IMG/VR virus record: IMGVR_UViG_3300037672_001935
Coordinates: 1-61,556 of that record
Strand: one strand, 5' to 3'
Length of the DNA stretch: 61,556 bases
Source of the DNA: a virus
The notes beneath the pieces were generated by a model. The model was not told the origin of the DNA. It saw nothing but the letters and a program-made list of their open reading frames with translations, and ran no database searches. Every line of letters starts with the position of its first letter. Positions within the stretch are counted from its first letter, which is position 1. Of the stretch, positions 1 to 14,858 are shown one piece after another. The position numbers and the translations under genes were made by a program.

Positions 1-2046
1 ATATTAAGCAAAGATGATACTCGAAAATTTTGTTTGTGGAAACAGTTGCCTAAGAAAAGAGAATATGAAAAATTCGGAAAAACTGCAGAGACTTATGATT
101 TTGTTGGTAGAGTACATTTAGATAGTTTGGAATTATATAGAAAATATACTTATGAGGAACGGCATAGTTACAGATTAGATGCAATCGGTGAAGCTGAGAT
201 TGGAGAGCGTAAGACAGTATATGAAGGTACATTAGATCAATTATATAATAATGATTTCCGTAAATTTATAGAATATAATAGACAAGACGTTGCATTGCTA
301 GATAAACTTGATCGTAAATTACGTTTTATAGATTTATCAAATGAACTTGCTCATGCTAATACAGTACTGTTAAAAACAACAATGGGTGCAGTAGCAGTGA
401 CGGAGCAAGCAATTATAAATGAATCTCACTATAGAGGTTTCCAGGTTCCTAACAGGATAAAACAAGGTGACAATAACACTGCGGCTGCAGGCGCTTATGT
501 AGCATTTCCAAAAAAAGGGGTCCACAAATGGATAGGTTCAATGGACTTGAATAGTCTATATCCAAGTGTAATTCGTGCTTTAAACATGGCGCCTGAAACA
601 ATAATAGGACAACTTAGACCAGATTCTACAGAAGAAACAATCCAGAATGCAATAACCCTTGAAAAAAAATCTTTTGCGGCAGCTTGGGAAGGAAGGTTTG
701 GATCCTTAGAATATGAGGCAGTATTAGAGAAACGTAAAGATGTAATGATTACAGTTGATTTTGAAGGTCAACCAAGTCAAGTTATGAGTGCGGCAGAAAT
801 ATATAAACTCATATATGATAGCAATATGCCTTGGATGCTTAGTGCAAACGGGACTATTTTTACTACAGAATATGAAGGCATTATTCCAGGTTTACTCAAA
901 AGATGGTATGCAGAGCGAAAAGACTTGCAAGCAATGAAGAAGAAAGCAATTGAGGCAAATAACGATCTTGAAATTGCTTTTTGGGATAAAAGACAGCTAG
1001 TTAAAAAAATTAATTTAAATTCATTATACGGAGCTATCTTAAATCCAGGATGTAGATTTTTCGATAAGAGAATTGGACAGAGCACAACACTTACTGGTAG
1101 ACAAATTGTTAAACACATGAGTGCGCAAGTAAACAAAGTAATCACTGGCAAATATGATCACACAGGTACAAGTGTAATTTACGGTGATACTGACAGTGTA
1201 TATTTTTCTGCATATCCAATGTTTGCGCAAGAAATTTCAGCTGGCACTGTTCCTTGGAATAAAGAAGCAGTTATACAACTTTATGACAAAATAGCCCAAG
1301 AGGTTAATACAACGTTTGGTGATTTTATGTTCGATACTTTTCATTGTATTTCTAGTAGGGCGGAAGTTATTGCAGCAGGTAGAGAAATTATTGCTGAATC
1401 TGGCTTATATATTACAAAGAAAAGATATGCTGCCTTAGTTTATGATATGGAAGGTGATCGCAAAGACATAGATGGTAAGCCAGGAAAAGTAAAAGCTATG
1501 GGATTAGATCTACGTCGATCTGATACTCCAATTTTTATGCAGGAGTTTTTAAGTGAGTTGCTGATGATGGTACTCCAAGAAAAATCTGAAAAAGACATTC
1601 TAGATAGAATAACAGAATTTAGACAAGAATTTAAGGACCGTCCAGGTTGGGAAAAAGGATCGCCTAAACGTGCAAATAAAATTGCATATTATCAAAGCTT
1701 AGAAGAAAAGAAAGGCAAAGCAAATTTACCTGGTCATGTACGTGCAAGTATAAATTGGAACACACTAAAAAAGATGAACAGTGATAAGTATAGTATTGAC
1801 ATTGTTGATGGTATGAAGGTTATAGTGTGTAAACTGCGATCTAATCCATTAAATTTCACAAGTGTTGCATACCCAACAGATGAATTAAGATTGCCCGAAT
1901 GGTTCAAAGATTTGCCATTTGATCATGAAGCTATGGAAACTACAATTATAGATAACAAATTAGACAATTTAATCGGAGTGCTTGATTACAATTTAGGTGA
2001 TACAAAACAAGATAATAACTTTAACAGTTTTTTTGAATGGGAATAA
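1..2046 (+). CDS. 43: Family B DNA polymerase (T4 gp43-like), 5' end cut by window
   Basis: Replicative DNA polymerase with 3'-5' proofreading. The frame is open from base 1, so the N-terminus lies outside the window; an in-frame TTG at 34 is not a credible start. About 681 residues are visible, against roughly 900 in T4 gp43. An Exo III-type motif (YNRQDVALLD) is near base 275. Polymerase motif A (DLNSLYPS) starts near 544, motif B (KINLNSLYGA) near 1006 and motif C (YGDTDSVY) near 1180, followed by a KKRYAAL element near 1417. All catalytic Asp positions of motifs A and C are present. The partner clamp genes lie just downstream. Identification is firm. Confidence 0.96.
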   Translation: MLSKDDTRKFCLWKQLPKKREYEKFGKTAETYDFVGRVHLDSLELYRKYTYEERHSYRLDAIGEAEIGERKTVYEGTLDQLYNNDFRKFIEYNRQDVALLDKLDRKLRFIDLSNELAHANTVLLKTTMGAVAVTEQAIINESHYRGFQVPNRIKQGDNNTAAAGAYVAFPKKGVHKWIGSMDLNSLYPSVIRALNMAPETIIGQLRPDSTEETIQNAITLEKKSFAAAWEGRFGSLEYEAVLEKRKDVMITVDFEGQPSQVMSAAEIYKLIYDSNMPWMLSANGTIFTTEYEGIIPGLLKRWYAERKDLQAMKKKAIEANNDLEIAFWDKRQLVKKINLNSLYGAILNPGCRFFDKRIGQSTTLTGRQIVKHMSAQVNKVITGKYDHTGTSVIYGDTDSVYFSAYPMFAQEISAGTVPWNKEAVIQLYDKIAQEVNTTFGDFMFDTFHCISSRAEVIAAGREIIAESGLYITKKRYAALVYDMEGDRKDIDGKPGKVKAMGLDLRRSDTPIFMQEFLSELLMMVLQEKSEKDILDRITEFRQEFKDRPGWEKGSPKRANKIAYYQSLEEKKGKANLPGHVRASINWNTLKKMNSDKYSIDIVDGMKVIVCKLRSNPLNFTSVAYPTDELRLPEWFKDLPFDHEAMETTIIDNKLDNLIGVLDYNLGDTKQDNNFNSFFEWE

Positions 2047-2049
2047 CAT

Positions 2050-2601
2050 ATGCCAACGGAATCTCCTGAACAATTAAAAAAAATAGCAGCCAATTGGGAA
2101 GACAACTTCAACGGTCACGCTGTTGAATTGAAGAAAAAAAGGTTAAAAGATTTAATTGAGTCTCCAGAATTAATGGATGCACAAATAGCGTATAAAGAAG
2201 AAACCGAACAGTATTCAACAGATAACGAGAAATGGTGGAATGAATTACCAGAAGAAGAAAGGGAAAAAGCTTTTTATGCTGTTTGCAAACGTATTTACAA
2301 GTCTGACATTGAAAAACAAGGTAGTTATAGATATGCACTTTATCAAATTTTTGGATTTGACATGAGCATGTATGGTGTTGGAATGGATTGTGGTTACATT
2401 GATATTCATAATACAATATATGGTGGAGTAGAATTAGCTAAAATGACCGATGCAAAAAAAATTATTATTAAAAATAAAAAAGATATTCAAACGATCGAAC
2501 TTGATAGTTACCAAAAAATTTTTGTTAAGTTAAAAGATGATGATAATATTTTAGAAATTGATATTAAGAATCTACCAAAGACTTATGATCATACACCTTA
2601 A
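2050..2601 (+). CDS. Conserved hypothetical protein following gp43
   Basis: A 183-residue acidic, helix-rich protein starting 3 bases after the polymerase stop, so almost certainly co-translated with it. The middle part (NEKWWNELPEEEREKAFYAV, then FGFDMSMYGVGMDCGY) resembles, from memory, a conserved unknown found beside replication genes in marine T4-like phages. No catalytic motif, signal peptide or membrane segment is visible. Position suggests an accessory role in replication, but that is inference. Confidence 0.75.
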   Translation: MPTESPEQLKKIAANWEDNFNGHAVELKKKRLKDLIESPELMDAQIAYKEETEQYSTDNEKWWNELPEEEREKAFYAVCKRIYKSDIEKQGSYRYALYQIFGFDMSMYGVGMDCGYIDIHNTIYGGVELAKMTDAKKIIIKNKKDIQTIELDSYQKIFVKLKDDDNILEIDIKNLPKTYDHTP

Positions 2602-2635
2602 AAAACAGTTAAATAGTATATAAAGTGGAGAAACA

Positions 2636-5425
2636 ATGAGAGATGTTTTATTAGATATACTAAATCACACACATGATATAACTGGTTTTGAGTTATTAAA
2701 AATTTACCATAAAAAACAAATTGTTACGGAAATTATTCCAGATCAATTTGGAAAGGTTACTGGTGTAGATAATATTACAAATCAATTCCAATCTACGCGA
2801 GAAAATATTCCTTGGTTAAAACTTGGAATGCCTATACATTTTTCAATAGTTGATTCTACATTTAACAACGCAACCAACCAAGCAGACAGTTCTACTACAT
2901 TTCTAACCGACACTAGAATCGACACTACCCAAACATATTACATTACAAATATAGTTGAAAATACAAAATGCTTGAGATTTACCGTTGGTATGACAGACGC
3001 ACCTGAAGACGTAGTTTTATTTCCTGCTGTAGACTTTGAATTTTTTGTTGTAAATCCACGAAGTTATTTTGTAGTTGCAGATTCTAGTATATTTAGAATA
3101 GGCGATCCTATCCTATTTGAATCTTTACCTGATTCAACCACTGCTGTAATCCAGTCAGAATTACAATTCCTTACAAGGTATTATATAAAAGAAATAGTAG
3201 ATAATACAAAAATAAGAGTTACTCCTGTTTTAAACGGAGACTTTATTAGATTTGATACAGCACTTAACAATAATTTTGAAATGGTTGTAGACAAGTCTTT
3301 TGTAGAAGCAGTATCGGAAGATCAAATAGTTTACGTAGTAGCAGAAACAAAACAAAAGATAAGAGATCTAAATGGTGAATTTGCATTAGATAAATTAGAT
3401 AAACTACATAATATAGTTCAAAATACTGACGAATATTTTCCTACAGGACATGGTCCGATTATACAAGCTACAAACACAGATACTAATAATGAATTTGTTA
3501 CTACAAAACTAAACATCTCAAATGCAGACGGAACTTTCAAAGATGAATACGTAATAAGTGACAAATCTATATTACAAACAGAGCATCCGATGATAGATTT
3601 CAAAGGATCATTGTGGAATTTCCAGTTTACTCCTAGTGCAACTAGTATTCAACGATTTGATGACATGGCAAAAACATACAATGAATTTTTATATTATGAT
3701 GTATCTACCAGCAGTATAAGTTTCAGAAACGATAACTACCCTGCTTTACCACACTATCAATTAGATTTAAAATTTGGAGAAGCTAATCCATATTTTGGCA
3801 ATGTGATATTTGAACCACAAATTTATGGCACATATATTCCGCAAATTATTTATAAGTATAAATCTACAATACGCAAAGTTACAGCAGATTATCGTGGACT
3901 TATTACAAAAATGAATAAAACTGTAGAACAAATAGTAGTAAATGTAAATGATGCCCTTGATATACTTACAATTAATGACACTTCTGTTTTAAATGTAAAT
4001 GATCCTGTGACTTTTGCAAACCCAGATGATTCTAGTACTGCACTTGTAAATGTAAATTTAGATGTAACAAAAACTTACTATATCAAAGAAATCATTGACT
4101 GCACAAGATTTAAAGTAAGTGAAGCAGTAAACGGCTCTGCTATAGACTTTCCGGAAGCTGATTGGACCTTTATCCTTGAGCGTGAAGTAAACATGTTTGA
4201 AATGACTTACAGTATGCCTAACAATGAAGATAGTGTAAATAAATTTTATTATGACAGTGCAGAAGACAGTGCTGGACCAATACAAATCGACTCAGAAGAC
4301 AGTAGTTATGACACTACTATGCAAAATAAAAGATATTGGCTAAGGGTTGGACTTCCTATACAATTCAATCCACAACAAGACTCAGCTGGTGCATTAGCGC
4401 AATATGGTATAGATTATACAAAAACGTATTATGTCAAAGAAATATTTAATACACTAAAAAGTCCAGATAGCGCAATGACTCCTATGATTTCAAGATTTAG
4501 TATTTCTGAAACAGTAGACGGTGCTGCCTTCCAAATACCATTTAATTTTGATCATGAGCAACCAGATAGCACAAAACCACAGATGGATGATTTTTACTGT
4601 TACACAGATGTAAACGAATTTGAAATTGATGATACTAGATTTTTTGAGGTAAATGATCCAGTGCAGATAGTAGGATTTCCTGTAGACGATAGTGTAAATT
4701 CTCCTTTACAGATTAACATTGATCCAAATATATTGTATTATATAAAAGAAATAAAAGATTCAAAAAGATTTACTATATCATCCACTATAGACGGTGATGA
4801 ATTCAAAATTACAGAATCAGCACTTATAGATTTCAATATCATGATTGTCCGAGAAAATAATAATAGTATTTTATTTACAAGTCATCCTAGTCTAAATGCT
4901 GATCCAACAAAAGAAAATGTGCTAACTACTGTATACGGGTCTGATTATCCAGTAATAAAAAATGTATCAACTACAGATTTCAACTATGGCAATCGACAAT
5001 CACTTATTCCTGTTGAGCCCAGCATGTTTGGGCCTTTAAAAATAGGTGATACATTGTCAGATTCAACTGACAAACTACATGATGATTCAACAATACCTAT
5101 ACCACGTGATCCATCTGGCAATACAACATTAGACGGACAATACGTTTACGCTTTTGAGTATCTCACAAAAACCTTGGAGGATAATTTTGCATATGATACA
5201 AATCAAGCAGGTGACGAGGTTAAAATTTACGATACTGTACAAAAAGGATATTTGATGCCTGTTGGATTCCTTAGACAATCCTGGACTTATTATGTTCCAC
5301 AAACCTTAGCAATCCTTACTTTGAATGATACAAAGACAATGCGTTTCAGCGATCAAGGCAAAATGATGATTACATTAGATAACTCATATGCCACTTACAA
5401 TTACATTATGCCAGCCAAATTATAA
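2636..5425 (+). CDS. Sliding-clamp homologue carrying five inserted virion-type repeats
   Basis: A 929-residue protein that matches the 243-residue clamp immediately downstream in three separated blocks: residues 1-35 (DVLLDILNHTH versus DILQDIVAHTH), about 225-405 (shared G-F-LDKLxxH, FKxDYxxxxK, FKGxxWxxxFTPSxxSIxR) and about 880-929 (LAILTLNDTK...SDQGKMMI...YNYIMPA). Between the blocks sit two and three copies of an 80-residue repeat. Each copy has a VNDPVxF-type strand, a TYYIKEI core near residues 100, 182, 480, 598 and 701, and a RFxVSxxVNG strand. Such repeats are typical of phage tail and structural proteins. The frame is uninterrupted, with a good GGAG site before the ATG. The insertions are Asp/Ser rich. 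It could be an active clamp, a clamp regulator or a virion protein built on a clamp core. Confidence 0.7.
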   Translation: MRDVLLDILNHTHDITGFELLKIYHKKQIVTEIIPDQFGKVTGVDNITNQFQSTRENIPWLKLGMPIHFSIVDSTFNNATNQADSSTTFLTDTRIDTTQTYYITNIVENTKCLRFTVGMTDAPEDVVLFPAVDFEFFVVNPRSYFVVADSSIFRIGDPILFESLPDSTTAVIQSELQFLTRYYIKEIVDNTKIRVTPVLNGDFIRFDTALNNNFEMVVDKSFVEAVSEDQIVYVVAETKQKIRDLNGEFALDKLDKLHNIVQNTDEYFPTGHGPIIQATNTDTNNEFVTTKLNISNADGTFKDEYVISDKSILQTEHPMIDFKGSLWNFQFTPSATSIQRFDDMAKTYNEFLYYDVSTSSISFRNDNYPALPHYQLDLKFGEANPYFGNVIFEPQIYGTYIPQIIYKYKSTIRKVTADYRGLITKMNKTVEQIVVNVNDALDILTINDTSVLNVNDPVTFANPDDSSTALVNVNLDVTKTYYIKEIIDCTRFKVSEAVNGSAIDFPEADWTFILEREVNMFEMTYSMPNNEDSVNKFYYDSAEDSAGPIQIDSEDSSYDTTMQNKRYWLRVGLPIQFNPQQDSAGALAQYGIDYTKTYYVKEIFNTLKSPDSAMTPMISRFSISETVDGAAFQIPFNFDHEQPDSTKPQMDDFYCYTDVNEFEIDDTRFFEVNDPVQIVGFPVDDSVNSPLQINIDPNILYYIKEIKDSKRFTISSTIDGDEFKITESALIDFNIMIVRENNNSILFTSHPSLNADPTKENVLTTVYGSDYPVIKNVSTTDFNYGNRQSLIPVEPSMFGPLKIGDTLSDSTDKLHDDSTIPIPRDPSGNTTLDGQYVYAFEYLTKTLEDNFAYDTNQAGDEVKIYDTVQKGYLMPVGFLRQSWTYYVPQTLAILTLNDTKTMRFSDQGKMMITLDNSYATYNYIMPAKL

Positions 5426-5434
5426 AAGGACATT

Positions 5435-6166
5435 ATGAAAGATATATTACAAGATATTGTAGCCCATACTCACGCTCTGGGCTCCTTAAATTTGCTAAAA
5501 GTCACATCTACAAGCACAGATACTACAATTGATTCTATAACTGACGATCGTAATATAATTTTATATGCAAAAACACATTCTCCTGTAAAAGAATTTACTG
5601 GTGTTTTTGGTATGGGTAATCTTGATAAGTTAAACTTACATTTAAAAAATCCAGAATACAAAGAAAATGCTACTTTGAATCTAGTTGAAGAAGATAGAAA
5701 TGGAATAAAATATCCTACCTACATACACTTTGAGAATCAAACTGGTGATTTTAAAAATGATTATCGATTTGTTAATAAAGCTATTATAGAACAGAAGATT
5801 AAAAATGCTAAATTTAAGGGAGCAACTTGGGCTATTGAATTTACTCCAAGCGTTGCAAGTATTGCTAGATTAAAACTTATGAGTGCTGCGCATGCTGAAG
5901 AGCCAACATTCAATGTTTTTACACATGCAAATAACTTAATTTTTTCATTTGGAGACACTACAACACATGCTGGTCAATTTGTGTTTGAAAGCAATGTAAA
6001 AGGCACTTTGAAAAAAACTTGGATTTGGCCTATTTCGGAAATACAAAGTATCCTTAATCTTAACGGAGACATATTTATAAGTATTTCAGATCAAGGATTA
6101 ATGAAAATCTCTATAGATAGCGGATTAGTGCTGTATGATTATTACGTTCCAGTCCATGTAAAATAA
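5435..6166 (+). CDS. 45: DNA polymerase sliding clamp (T4 gp45-like)
   Basis: A 243-residue protein close in length to T4 gp45 (228). The overall pattern resembles the gp45 clamps of marine T4-like phages as I remember them: IVAHTHALG at the start, GVFGMGNLDKLN near residue 60, FKNDYRF, EFTPSVASIARL near 140, and a C-terminal SDQGLMKISIDSG strand. It would form the ring that tethers gp43 to DNA and, in T4, also activates late transcription. It follows the enlarged clamp homologue by 9 bases and is preceded by an AAAGGA site. Sequence similarity to T4 gp45 itself is low, so the call rests on family pattern and neighbourhood. Confidence 0.75.
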   Translation: MKDILQDIVAHTHALGSLNLLKVTSTSTDTTIDSITDDRNIILYAKTHSPVKEFTGVFGMGNLDKLNLHLKNPEYKENATLNLVEEDRNGIKYPTYIHFENQTGDFKNDYRFVNKAIIEQKIKNAKFKGATWAIEFTPSVASIARLKLMSAAHAEEPTFNVFTHANNLIFSFGDTTTHAGQFVFESNVKGTLKKTWIWPISEIQSILNLNGDIFISISDQGLMKISIDSGLVLYDYYVPVHVK

Positions 6167-6876
6167 TGCATATAATGCTTACAGGGCATTGTGGTTACAT
6201 TGGAAGTGCCCTGTGTAAAAAATTAAACACACACAGCATAGTAGGATTTGATTTACTAGAAGGTCACAATTTGTTAGATATTCCTCTAAAAGAAAAGTTT
6301 GACCTTATAATTCATCTAGCTGGAAAAAGCGGTGTACGTAAAAGCATTGACAATCCTGCAGATTACTGGCATCACAATGTAGAAGTCACTAAAAGATTAT
6401 TAAGTATTTACGGAAATAAGACTAGATTTTTATATGCTAGTTCTAGTTCTGCATACGAGCCTGATCTAAATCCTTATGCTGCAAGTAAACTCTGTGTCGA
6501 AGCTGCTGCATCTAGGTATGATAACACATTAGGTATGCGCTTCCATACTGTATACAATCAAAATCCAAGACATGGAATGTTTGTTCAAAAATTATTAGAT
6601 AAAAAACTAGAATACACCACAAATCACTACAGAGATTTTATTCATATGGACGATCTATGTAATGCAATAATTAAATGTATCAACAGTGCTATTACTGGCA
6701 TTATTGACATTGGTACGGGTACACCGATTGCAGTCCGTGATTTAGCACCGCATTTGCCTGTCCGTCTAAATACTGTTGGCGAAAGAGAAATTACTTGTGC
6801 AAACATAAAAAATCTTCGTAAATTAAACTTCACTCCAAAACACAACATAATTGATTTTTTAAAAAATTTACAATGA
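6166..6876 (+). CDS. NAD-dependent sugar epimerase/dehydratase (extended SDR)
   Basis: A 236-residue short-chain dehydrogenase. The Rossmann motif TGHCGYIG is at residues 6-13, HLAGKSG near 50-56, a Ser-rich catalytic strand at 91-96 and the catalytic YAASK (Y104, K108) follow. It is shorter than UDP-galactose epimerases (about 330), with a reduced C-terminal substrate domain. The ATG overlaps the clamp stop by one base, an odd placement for a nucleotide-sugar enzyme in a replication operon. The sugar-nucleotide substrate cannot be told; it may supply the glycosyltransferases elsewhere in the window. Confidence 0.85.
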   Translation: MHIMLTGHCGYIGSALCKKLNTHSIVGFDLLEGHNLLDIPLKEKFDLIIHLAGKSGVRKSIDNPADYWHHNVEVTKRLLSIYGNKTRFLYASSSSAYEPDLNPYAASKLCVEAAASRYDNTLGMRFHTVYNQNPRHGMFVQKLLDKKLEYTTNHYRDFIHMDDLCNAIIKCINSAITGIIDIGTGTPIAVRDLAPHLPVRLNTVGEREITCANIKNLRKLNFTPKHNIIDFLKNLQ

Positions 6877-8417
6877 ACTATAATCTCACAAATACACAAA
6901 ATGATTATGCATATTTTTTGCCTGCAATTAGTGGCTTTTACTCTACATTTATAGGCAAACAAAGATTTGAAGAGTATGTTGTCAAAACCCGTATTCCAAA
7001 GGATTACACAAACAGTGTCGAAAGTTTAAATTATCTAAATAAACAAAAAGGTAAGTTTTATTACAAGTGGTCTTTATACTCTGCAGGACATGCCGATCTA
7101 GACATCACAAAACATATGCCTAAAGAAGATATGATAAGGAATCGTGATAGAGAAAATACATGGTTGCTAGGCGACTCAGGTGGATTTCAAATTGGAAAGG
7201 GGGTCTGGGAAGGAAATTGGAAAGATCCTGGATGTCCAAAAGCCAGCAAAAAACGTAAAGATGTACTTGCTTGGATGGACGAATATATGGATTATGGAAT
7301 GATTTTAGATATTCCTGCTTGGGTATCACGAAGTGAAAGGGGACAAGCAGCTACAGGTGTTACAACATATCAAGAAGCAGTAAATGCAACCAGGATAAAC
7401 AACAATTATTGGTTGCAAAACAGATCTGGCGCTTGCAAATTTTTAAATGTTTTACAAGGAGAAAATCACACTGATGCAGAAGATTGGTATCAGCAGATGA
7501 AAGATTATTGTGATCCTAAAAAGTATCCTGGTAATCATTTTAATGGTTGGAGTATGGGTGGACAAAATATGTGCGATATACACCTTGCTTTAAAAAGATT
7601 AATATCTTTAAGATTTGATAATTTATTAGAAAAAGGCATCCATGATGTGATACATTTTTTAGGGACAAGCAAATTAGAATGGGCAGTATTATTAACTGAT
7701 GTACAGAGAGCCATAAGAAAATATCATAATGAAAATTTCATGGTTACGTTTGACTGTGCAAGTCCTTTCCTTGCTACTGCTAACGGACAAATTTATATAC
7801 AAACAGAAACTAAAGATAGGAAAAAATGGGTCTACAGAATGGTTCCAAGTATTGATGGTTTGAAATATGCTACCGACACTCGCAATTTTAAAACTGGCGT
7901 TTTGCAAGATAATATTTTCAAAAATTTCGAAGATAGCCCTTTAACTGAAAACATTTTGATAAATGATATTTGTGTTTATGCAGAGGGTGATACAAATAAA
8001 GTAGGAGGTCCTAAAATAAAAGCAGGAAATATTGATAAAGATAAACACGGTAATCCGATATTAGATGATAACGGAAATATAATTATTAGAAAACGCGATT
8101 CAACAAGTTGGGATAGTTTTAGTTATGCTATTCAGATGGGACATAATGTATGGAGTCATATAACTGCAGTTCAAGAAGCTAATAGGCAATATGATAATAA
8201 CATAATTCCTTCAATGTTGATACGAGAAGACTTTGATATAATAGCTTTTCGCGATGTAGTAAATGATATTTTTGCAACTGACGATAAACAAAAAGCAAAT
8301 GATATAAACGATGATTATCAACGCTATCTTGATAGTATATTAGGTACTAGAGGACGTGTCGGCAAAAAAATGATGCATGCACATACAAAATATAATGAAT
8401 TTTTTGAAGAGGTTTGA
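6873..8417 (+). CDS. dpdA: DpdA-like 7-deazaguanine DNA transglycosylase (TGT superfamily)
   Basis: A 514-residue protein with the landmarks of tRNA-guanine transglycosylases in order: GDSGGFQIG (D101, the general acid position), a LNVLQG strand (191-196), GWSMGG (225-230), HFLGTSKLEW (261-270) and FDCASP with the nucleophile-type D294. The cysteine zinc site of tRNA TGT is not evident. Phage TGT relatives called DpdA replace guanine in DNA with preQ0 or derivatives, which protects the genome from host restriction. QueD-like, FolE and QueE genes lie in the next 8 kb and a QueC-like gene at 37.6 kb, which supports a DNA rather than tRNA role. The start overlaps the previous stop (ATGA). Confidence 0.8.
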   Translation: MNYNLTNTQNDYAYFLPAISGFYSTFIGKQRFEEYVVKTRIPKDYTNSVESLNYLNKQKGKFYYKWSLYSAGHADLDITKHMPKEDMIRNRDRENTWLLGDSGGFQIGKGVWEGNWKDPGCPKASKKRKDVLAWMDEYMDYGMILDIPAWVSRSERGQAATGVTTYQEAVNATRINNNYWLQNRSGACKFLNVLQGENHTDAEDWYQQMKDYCDPKKYPGNHFNGWSMGGQNMCDIHLALKRLISLRFDNLLEKGIHDVIHFLGTSKLEWAVLLTDVQRAIRKYHNENFMVTFDCASPFLATANGQIYIQTETKDRKKWVYRMVPSIDGLKYATDTRNFKTGVLQDNIFKNFEDSPLTENILINDICVYAEGDTNKVGGPKIKAGNIDKDKHGNPILDDNGNIIIRKRDSTSWDSFSYAIQMGHNVWSHITAVQEANRQYDNNIIPSMLIREDFDIIAFRDVVNDIFATDDKQKANDINDDYQRYLDSILGTRGRVGKKMMHAHTKYNEFFEEV

Positions 8418-13317: not shown

Positions 13318-13989
13318 ATGATTAGTGATCAGATAAAAAACAGGATCAAGCAAGCTGGCGCTCGATTCCATAGTAATGACAACATAAGTGAATACATCAA
13401 CCCTGGCGAACTTGAACTACTTCAAGATGAAGTTCAGATTAAACTACAGAATGTTTTAGATAGTTTAGTTATTGATACTAGTAACGACCATAATACTAAC
13501 GAAACTGCAAAACGTGTCGCTAAAATGTATGTACAGGAAATTTTTGGCGGTAGATACAAACCCTTGCCAAAAATTACAGCTTTTCCTAACATGGGTTATA
13601 AGAGTTTGTATACAAGCGGTCCTATCAGTATACGAAGTACTTGTGCACATCACTTTCAAAATATTGTTGGCAAATGTTGGATTGGTATAATACCAGAGCA
13701 AGAAGTAATTGGATTAAGCAAATTTAACAGATTAGTTCATCATATTGCAGAACGCCCACAAATACAAGAAGAAATGACCACACAGATTGCCATGGCTTTA
13801 ACAGAATATGCAAAAACTCCAAACGTTGCTGTGGTAGTAAAAGCCGAACATCACTGCATGACGCATAGAGGTGTTCGTGAACACGAAAGCGATATGACAA
13901 CTGCTATCATGCTTGGAGCTTTTAATAAAGATTCTGCACTTAAACAGGAGTTTTATGATATATGCCTAAGCATGAAGGGTCATAAATGA
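13318..13989 (+). CDS. folE: GTP cyclohydrolase I
   Basis: A 223-residue enzyme converting GTP to 7,8-dihydroneopterin triphosphate, the first step of both folate and 7-deazaguanine synthesis. The zinc ligands C109 and C180 and the active-site HH pair (H111, H112 in STCAHHF) are in the same spacing as E. coli FolE (C110, H112, H113, C181). GLSKFNRLV and ERPQIQEEMT are also conserved. Full length. It directly precedes queE with a 4-base overlap, pointing to the deazaguanine branch. Confidence 0.96.
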   Translation: MISDQIKNRIKQAGARFHSNDNISEYINPGELELLQDEVQIKLQNVLDSLVIDTSNDHNTNETAKRVAKMYVQEIFGGRYKPLPKITAFPNMGYKSLYTSGPISIRSTCAHHFQNIVGKCWIGIIPEQEVIGLSKFNRLVHHIAERPQIQEEMTTQIAMALTEYAKTPNVAVVVKAEHHCMTHRGVREHESDMTTAIMLGAFNKDSALKQEFYDICLSMKGHK

Positions 13990-14858
13990 AAACGTTACGC
14001 TATTCTGAAGCATTTTACAGTGTGCAAGGAGAGGGTAATTTCATTGGTACTCCAAGTGTTTTCTTACGAAGCTTTGGTTGTAATTTAAGATGCCAAGGAT
14101 TTGGTTTGACACGTGGTACTCCTAAGAAAAAAATGAGTGACGAAGTTGTTGCATTATTAGATAATGGTGTGCTTGATAGGGTCAGTAAATTTGAGGATTT
14201 GCCTATGGTGAGAACAGGATGTGATACATATGCAAGTATATATCCTGAATTTAAAAAATACATGATGGACAGATCTGTAGATCAAGTAGTAGAACACATA
14301 CTCAGTCTTACACCAGAAAATAAATGGCAAATGGATAATGGTCAAGATATACATTTCATTCTAACCGGAGGAGAGCCATTATTATGGCAACGTTTTTGGC
14401 TTAATCTTTTCGAACATCCTAGGATGCAGGATTTACGAAATCTTACAGTAGAAACCAACACTACACAGCAATTACAACCACAATTTGCAGAATATCTTTC
14501 TACACAGGATAGATTCCAAGTAACTTGGGCATGCAGTCCTAAACTTACAGTATCTGCAGAACTGTGGAAAAATGCTATACGTCCAGAAATAGCACGGTCT
14601 TATCTTGACATAGATAAAAGTAAAATGTATTTAAAATTTGTAGTTGCCGACGATGTCGATATTGATGATGTGCATAAGGCTGTGAAAGAATTTTCAGATG
14701 GAGGAGTAGATGTGCCTGTATACGTAATGCCTGTCGGAGGATGTAAAGAAGAATATGGTGAAAATAAAGTGAACGTAGCTGAACTAGCATTAGCAAAAGG
14801 TTGGAGATACAGTCCTAGATTACAAGTAGAATTATTTGGTAACAGTTGGGGAACATAA
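13986..14858 (+). CDS. queE: 7-carboxy-7-deazaguanine synthase (radical SAM), unusual cluster motif
   Basis: A 290-residue radical SAM enzyme that converts 6-carboxytetrahydropterin to 7-carboxy-7-deazaguanine. EAFYSVQGEGNFIGTPSVF (8-26) is the QueE start signature and ILTGGEPLLW the SAM-binding GGEP motif. Instead of CX3CX2C the cluster region reads C32-NLR-C36 with F39 where the third Cys should be; the next Cys is C79 in RTGCDTYAS, after a 42-residue spacer. E. coli QueE uses CX3CX2C and Burkholderia QueE CX14CX2C. The C-terminal PVYVMPVGG and the YSPRLQVELFG end fit the family. It overlaps folE by 4 bases. Confidence 0.88.
   Translation: MKTLRYSEAFYSVQGEGNFIGTPSVFLRSFGCNLRCQGFGLTRGTPKKKMSDEVVALLDNGVLDRVSKFEDLPMVRTGCDTYASIYPEFKKYMMDRSVDQVVEHILSLTPENKWQMDNGQDIHFILTGGEPLLWQRFWLNLFEHPRMQDLRNLTVETNTTQQLQPQFAEYLSTQDRFQVTWACSPKLTVSAELWKNAIRPEIARSYLDIDKSKMYLKFVVADDVDIDDVHKAVKEFSDGGVDVPVYVMPVGGCKEEYGENKVNVAELALAKGWRYSPRLQVELFGNSWGT

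Follow-up and report, generated by a model that had tools for sequence, protein, structure and literature searches.

The usual picture of a sliding clamp is that of a compact, conserved ring of the replication machinery. Paralogous clamp subunits can occur together in one organism, as in the heterotrimeric clamps PCNA1-2-3 of Sulfolobus and 9-1-1 of eukaryotes. Among large phages, PCNA-type clamps have been described for group 2 jumbo phages (Iyer et al. 2021), while the papers on phages RaK2 (PMC3622015) and CBB (PMC5259590) reported that a gp45 homologue was not found. The window analyzed here, the whole 61,556-nt stretch of a viral record (IMG/VR IMGVR_UViG_3300037672_001935, positions 1 to 61,556), encodes two clamp-related proteins downstream of a family B DNA polymerase: one of 243 residues and, directly ahead of it, one of 929 residues that we refer to as BIG. 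The coordinates of all features are collected in Table 1.

Results

A PCNA-type clamp downstream of BIG

The AlphaFold2 model of the 243-residue protein, for which 29 relatives served as input, reached a pLDDT of 87.4 and a pTM of 0.85 and displays the order helix, strands, helix, strands twice, corresponding to two domains. In a Foldseek comparison with the PDB, the top 50 matches were all PCNA-type sliding clamps (E 5e-11 to 2e-9, TM ~0.6-0.7), and on this modeling the protein is a clamp with the PCNA fold. Structure comparison was needed for the assignment, since a small-clamp profile retrieved nothing from the PDB sequences. The members of its family, phrog_12062, include proteins of the jumbo phages PA5oct, Atu_ph07, Phosso, GAP32, and CBB, with annotations ranging from 'hypothetical' through 'PCNA' to 'structural protein'; the family supplies the gp45-type clamp that had been reported missing for RaK2 and CBB. 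The PA5oct member (EST35_0314; L097 5992-6738) is an ordinary clamp that is listed in GenBank as a 'structural protein' with ESI-MS/MS evidence. This entry may reflect carry-over of an abundant replication protein; in a different phage, a clamp-loader peptide was among the proteins retrieved by its proteomics (PMC10892097).

BIG as a clamp paralogue with inserted repeats

By sequence comparison, BIG is a tandem paralogue of the 243-residue clamp. The first-pass annotation of the window had claimed that three blocks of BIG align with this clamp, and this was borne out by BLASTP, which returned three collinear blocks (E 1e-18, 9e-8, and 3e-4), as well as by a profile built from small clamps only, which matched BIG residues 1-35, 220-406, and 877-928 at 9.7, 72.7, and 41.1 bits, respectively, while the best of 500 shuffles of BIG reached 6.6 bits. 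Between the blocks lie two and three repeats of ~82-107 residues each, with YY[IV] cores at residues 101, 182, 481, 598, and 701, and both their number and their placement agree with the first-pass annotation. The five repeats detect one another, scoring 27-56 bits in leave-one-out profile searches against a shuffle maximum of 7-11 bits. The structural model of BIG itself was of moderate quality (pLDDT 68, pTM 0.53); in a PDB fold search PCNA ranked best for this model, albeit as a weak match (E 7e-3, prob 0.97). A gp27-type baseplate torus or tail-tube fold was also considered and was rejected, as the top 50 PDB matches of either BIG or the small protein contained no gp27 but clamps instead.

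Table 1. Features of the BIG locus, with coordinates in the window
Feature	Coordinates	Strand	Basis or remark
Family B DNA polymerase, 5' end beyond the window	34..2046	+	PF00136 E 4e-37; phrog_262 E 6.5e-154
Polymerase C-terminal peptide NFNSFFEWE, candidate clamp-binding tail	2017..2043	+	TFxxLFDF-type tail
p183, function unassigned, directly 5' of BIG in every carrier found	2050..2601	+	
GTTAAATAGTA in the p183-BIG gap	2608..2618	+	core AGTTAAATA[CG]TA 5' of BIG in L090, L103, L104, L112
BIG, clamp paralogue with inserted repeats	2636..5425	+	929-aa ORF
Clamp block 1: BIG 1-33 = clamp 1-33; N-terminal helix and first strand	2636..2734	+	hmmsearch, shuffles
Insertion 1: two repeats (BIG 36-142, 139-220), loop at clamp residues ~26-29	2741..3295	+	repeat HMM, leave-one-out
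Clamp block 2: BIG 219-407 = clamp 27-198	3290..3856	+	178 bits
Insertion 2: three repeats (BIG 438-519, 556-660, 658-742), loop at clamp residues ~186-195	3947..4861	+	repeat HMM, leave-one-out
Linker BIG 741-875 (~135 residues), without confident structure	4856..5260	+	pLDDT <50
Clamp block 3: BIG 877-928 = clamp 189-240; final helix and final three strands	5264..5419	+	hmmsearch, shuffles
Ordinary sliding clamp, 243 aa, phrog_12062 (predicted)	5435..6166	+	AlphaFold2, PDB fold search, phrog_12062 E 9e-34

Mapped onto the small-clamp model, the first insertion site is the turn joining the first two modeled strands of domain 1 (clamp residues 26-29), and the second is the loop 186-195 that precedes the last helix. 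An extra site used in one lineage of BIG (lineage 3) is the equivalent turn in domain 2 (clamp residues 165-166). We take the first and the extra site to be the B-C turns of PCNA, the domain-2 turn being the one that holds Lys164, and the second site to be its D2-E2 loop. From this correspondence we infer that the insertion sites lie on the back face or outer rim, a position from which the inserts would leave the channel, the subunit interface, and the partner-binding face free.

Distribution and forms of BIG

Scans of viral contigs revealed BIG in 22 contigs besides the window. One of these (L004, 12,638 nt) shows no difference from the window along 12.6 kb, and the other 21 are diverged. Since the identical and the diverged contigs carry the same design, a misassembly at the repeat boundaries, which the first-pass annotation had named as one possible refutation of its reading, is excluded. 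The gene order polymerase, p183, BIG was found in all carriers, and an ordinary clamp follows BIG in every contig that reaches that far (14/14). The amino acid identity of BIG is 33-51% in related phages and 33-37% between the main lineages. Longer forms of 1,133-1,181 aa contain up to eight repeat matches, and a third insertion point, with a repeat at clamp residues 164-166, is present in L090, L103, L104, and L109 and absent in L112-L114. BIG was not found in named phages (tblastn) or in bacterial genome contigs, and a search of 50,697 phage records returned no full-length relative. Judging by these collections, none of the carriers is in culture.

In several relatives BIG is divided into separate ORFs, namely 800 + 441 aa in L085 (three contigs; L085 4954-8678) and 816 + 309 + 126 aa in L177 (6124-9880). 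The last clamp helix and strands then reside on a separate polypeptide (441 aa in L085, 126 aa in L177), and the middle pieces contain proline-rich tracts. The breaks fall in the stretch that corresponds to the linker of the window's BIG and consist of clean ATGA and TAATG overlaps; because these are kept in three diverged phages (L085, L123, and L177), the split points are taken to be real.

Neighboring genes and the upstream element

The polymerase, which is complete in L004 (889 aa), ends in a TFxxLFDF-type C-terminal tail, as do all 72 polymerases compared. This tail resembles the gp45-binding one of T4/RB69 gp43. For p183, no relative was found in PHROGs, Pfam, or the PDB, and the proposal that it is a clamp-loader small subunit was rejected on that ground. 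The p183 family (the window, L101, L102, L106, L108, L117-L175) shares the core GSYRYxLYxxFGFDxxMYGxGMDCGYxxIHN. Many related phages have members of it at other loci, in unrelated gene surroundings; its location between polymerase and clamp is confined to the BIG clade.

The gap between p183 and BIG contains a short element, GTTAAATAGTA, whose GTTAAATA form is conserved 5' of BIG in lineages 1 and 3 and whose sequence is similar to ATAAATA, the late motif of phage CBB (PMC5259590). Motifs similar to GTTAAATA also precede the polymerase and the small clamp, and in the L085/L123 lineage p183 and BIG are joined without a gap. A late promoter as proof that BIG is a virion gene was therefore rejected, and the element is treated as weak evidence.

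Elsewhere in the window (6873-8417, 13318-13989, and 13986-14858), GTP cyclohydrolase I and QueE-like genes suggest a 7-deazaguanine pathway. In nearly all relatives, too, the 514-aa protein encoded at 6873 is found downstream of the clamp; it has no Pfam match. The region 28170-61548 on the minus strand (~33 kb, with genes almost all in one direction) encodes several radical SAM proteins (PF04055, phrog_14086) and a UDP-glucose dehydrogenase (phrog_9148, E 8.6e-98), and is a biosynthetic cluster unusual for a phage.

Virion character of the inserts

The first-pass annotation had called the repeats virion-type, and three lines of evidence support the term. First, a repeat profile made from two lineages found the repeats of lineage 3 independently, and the repeat HMM also matched giant ORFs of 3,334-4,516 aa in L093-L095, of which those of L094 and L095 are members of phrog_10938, 'virion structural protein' (E 1e-116 and 8e-222). 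Second, a Foldseek comparison of the BIG model with viral structures returned tail and virion proteins. Third, BIG of lineage 3 carries, at residues ~932-1049, a domain of phrog_677, 'baseplate wedge tail fiber protein connector' (E 1.9e-9), which is also found in the tail fibre/spike of P-SSM2 and in cyanophage tail fibres; BIG of the window is without it. Outside BIG, no repeats were found in nine partial records of these phages, and tblastn with the repeat regions of L093 and L095 gave no match in named phages.

Selection, loss, and divergence of the small clamp

In a polymerase tree, all carriers of BIG and p183 fall into one group (SH-aLRT 99). Inside this clade, four phages, L101, L102, and L106 among them, possess p183 and the clamp and are without BIG; one of their records, 66 kb long, has no BIG elsewhere. 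BIG is thus dispensable, and the positions of these four relatives on the tree imply about three losses within the clade, with the small clamp retained. Where present, BIG shows dN/dS values of 0.14-0.18 among relatives, and 0.08-0.14 in the clamp blocks, which indicate that it is under purifying selection. For the pair L090/L104, the blocks gave 0.08 and the inserts 0.12-0.20.

Relative to its polymerase, the small clamp has diverged to an unusual degree in this clade. Among pairs with polymerases 91-94% identical, its median identity was 59% (21 pairs), compared with 79% (258 pairs) for non-carrier relatives fetched by polymerase, the pairs not being independent of one another; an earlier comparison set (59 vs 88%) had been picked by clamp similarity and was biased. 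At equal polymerase identity, a neighboring gene displayed no such difference (77.7 vs 77.4%). The extra variability peaks in the linker between the domains, in the C-terminal tail, and, within domain 2, in two strands or loops. Since clade relatives without BIG are diverged as well and synonymous divergence (dS) is also high, allele exchange may contribute.

Channel-helix residues

Three basic residues, K71, R145, and K147, vary hardly at all among small clamps (entropy <0.2 bit, 91 + 14 sequences), and their helices, as we take from the PCNA fold, line the channel. In BIG, the position equivalent to K71 is occupied by Q, D, E, R, or L and that of K147 by D, N, or Q, with K retained in L085 alone, while the Arg at position 145 is kept in every BIG. 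Two of the three conserved basic residues are thus changed in most lineages, lineages 1 and 3 keeping one of the three, with the exception of the split lineage L085, which has basic residues at all three positions. BIG is also strongly acidic (pI 4.4-5.0). Because the basic helix residues are mostly lost, a ring of BIG would form a poor DNA channel in most lineages and probably does not hug DNA.

Discussion

The first-pass annotation had offered an either/or reading, a clamp whose loops are decorated or a virion ring of clamp origin. The part common to both, clamp ancestry, is shown by the fold of the small protein, the blocks of BIG, and the weak PCNA match of its model, and the virion character of the inserts holds at the level of domains. 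The reading that we favor, at somewhat less than even probability, is that a former clamp now serves as a ring-shaped platform carrying virion-type modules, with a structural or assembly role in the particle. The replication clamp was duplicated in an ancestor shared by a single clade of marine T4-like phages; according to this proposal, the small copy would remain the replicative clamp, while BIG would keep the clamp fold as a ring-forming core, presumably a trimer, and would no longer slide on DNA. With the beta-repeats placed in loops away from the channel-lining helices, such a ring could act as a threefold platform displaying 15 or more virion-type domains, and BIG would be a component of the particle or of its assembly. 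The loss of helix charge, the virion-type inserts, and the dispensability of BIG all argue for this platform, as do the maintenance of BIG under selection and the annotation of the homologous PA5oct clamp as a structural protein detected by mass spectrometry, although possible carry-over weakens the last point. Several observations argue against it: BIG sits in a replication operon between polymerase and clamp and adjoins no structural gene cluster, no further copies of the repeat turned up in the partial records of these phages, the BIG model is moderate and its PCNA match weak, and L085 keeps all three basic positions. The more specific version, in which the particle took over the replication clamp as a ring scaffold, with the virion domains facing outward and DNA binding lost, is also somewhat less probable than not.

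The location of BIG beside polymerase and small clamp in all carriers is what a working accessory clamp would predict, one that assembles on DNA, either into mixed rings together with the small clamp or into rings of its own, and whose repeats serve as docking arms tying replication or late transcription to another phage process, for example packaging. The stronger constraint on the blocks than on the inserts, the retention of block 3 even as a separate polypeptide, and the helix Arg common to every BIG are consistent with such a role, and the excess divergence of the small clamp, located mostly in its linker and C-terminal tail, looks as if its partners had changed. However, that divergence extends to relatives without BIG and may partly stem from allele exchange, the inserts are virion domains, and BIG was lost about three times, never together with the small clamp. 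Because of these repeated losses and the loss of two of the three basic helix residues, to acidic ones in several lineages, a working DNA clamp is less likely, and we regard it as the main rival explanation, possible but less probable than the platform. The patchy presence of BIG, its fast change between lineages, its fewer basic residues, and the fast-changing partner-binding parts of the small clamp would also suit a decoy or inhibitor, that is, a protein that mimics a clamp and so captures clamp-seeking proteins, be they from the host, from a rival phage, or from a defence system, with the repeats as solubility or binding modules. Yet such a protein would have no need of large conserved virion-type domains, and the searches of Pfam and PHROGs matched no defence or inhibitor family, which leaves this explanation improbable. 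The split and absent forms of BIG might suggest a duplicate in decay or repeats inserted by faulty assembly, but this was rejected as extremely improbable given the identical L004, conservation from end to end across the 22 contigs, the low dN/dS, and the clean split overlaps.

No earlier description of a clamp of this type was found in the literature searched, most subscription journals being beyond its scope; if the ring-scaffold version is true, BIG would be, to our knowledge, the first case of a clamp fold serving in the virion or its assembly. With one origin, natural nulls, and natural split versions, the BIG clade provides a clean comparative system for studying how a ring of the replication machinery acquires a new function.

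Compared with known systems, BIG stands closest to the PCNA/T4 gp45-type clamps of phrog_12062, with which it shares the clamp sequence in three collinear blocks and the position beside a family B polymerase, and its phages also keep the gp43-like clamp-binding tail. It differs from them in size (929-1,181 aa against ~243), in the virion repeats at two or three loops, in the change of two of the three basic helix residues in most lineages, and in always being a second copy beside an ordinary clamp. The virion proteins of phrog_10938 (3,000-4,500 aa) and cyanophage tail proteins have the ~80-residue YY[IV]KEI repeat in common with BIG, but are built as long chains of beta-domains and have no clamp core, whereas the T4-type baseplate wedge/tail fibre connector (phrog_677) and the fibre/spike of P-SSM2 share a single domain with lineage-3 BIG and nothing more. 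Finally, Sulfolobus PCNA1-2-3 and the 9-1-1 subunits resemble the BIG pair as clamp paralogues within one organism but, unlike BIG, are compact and devoid of virion domains.
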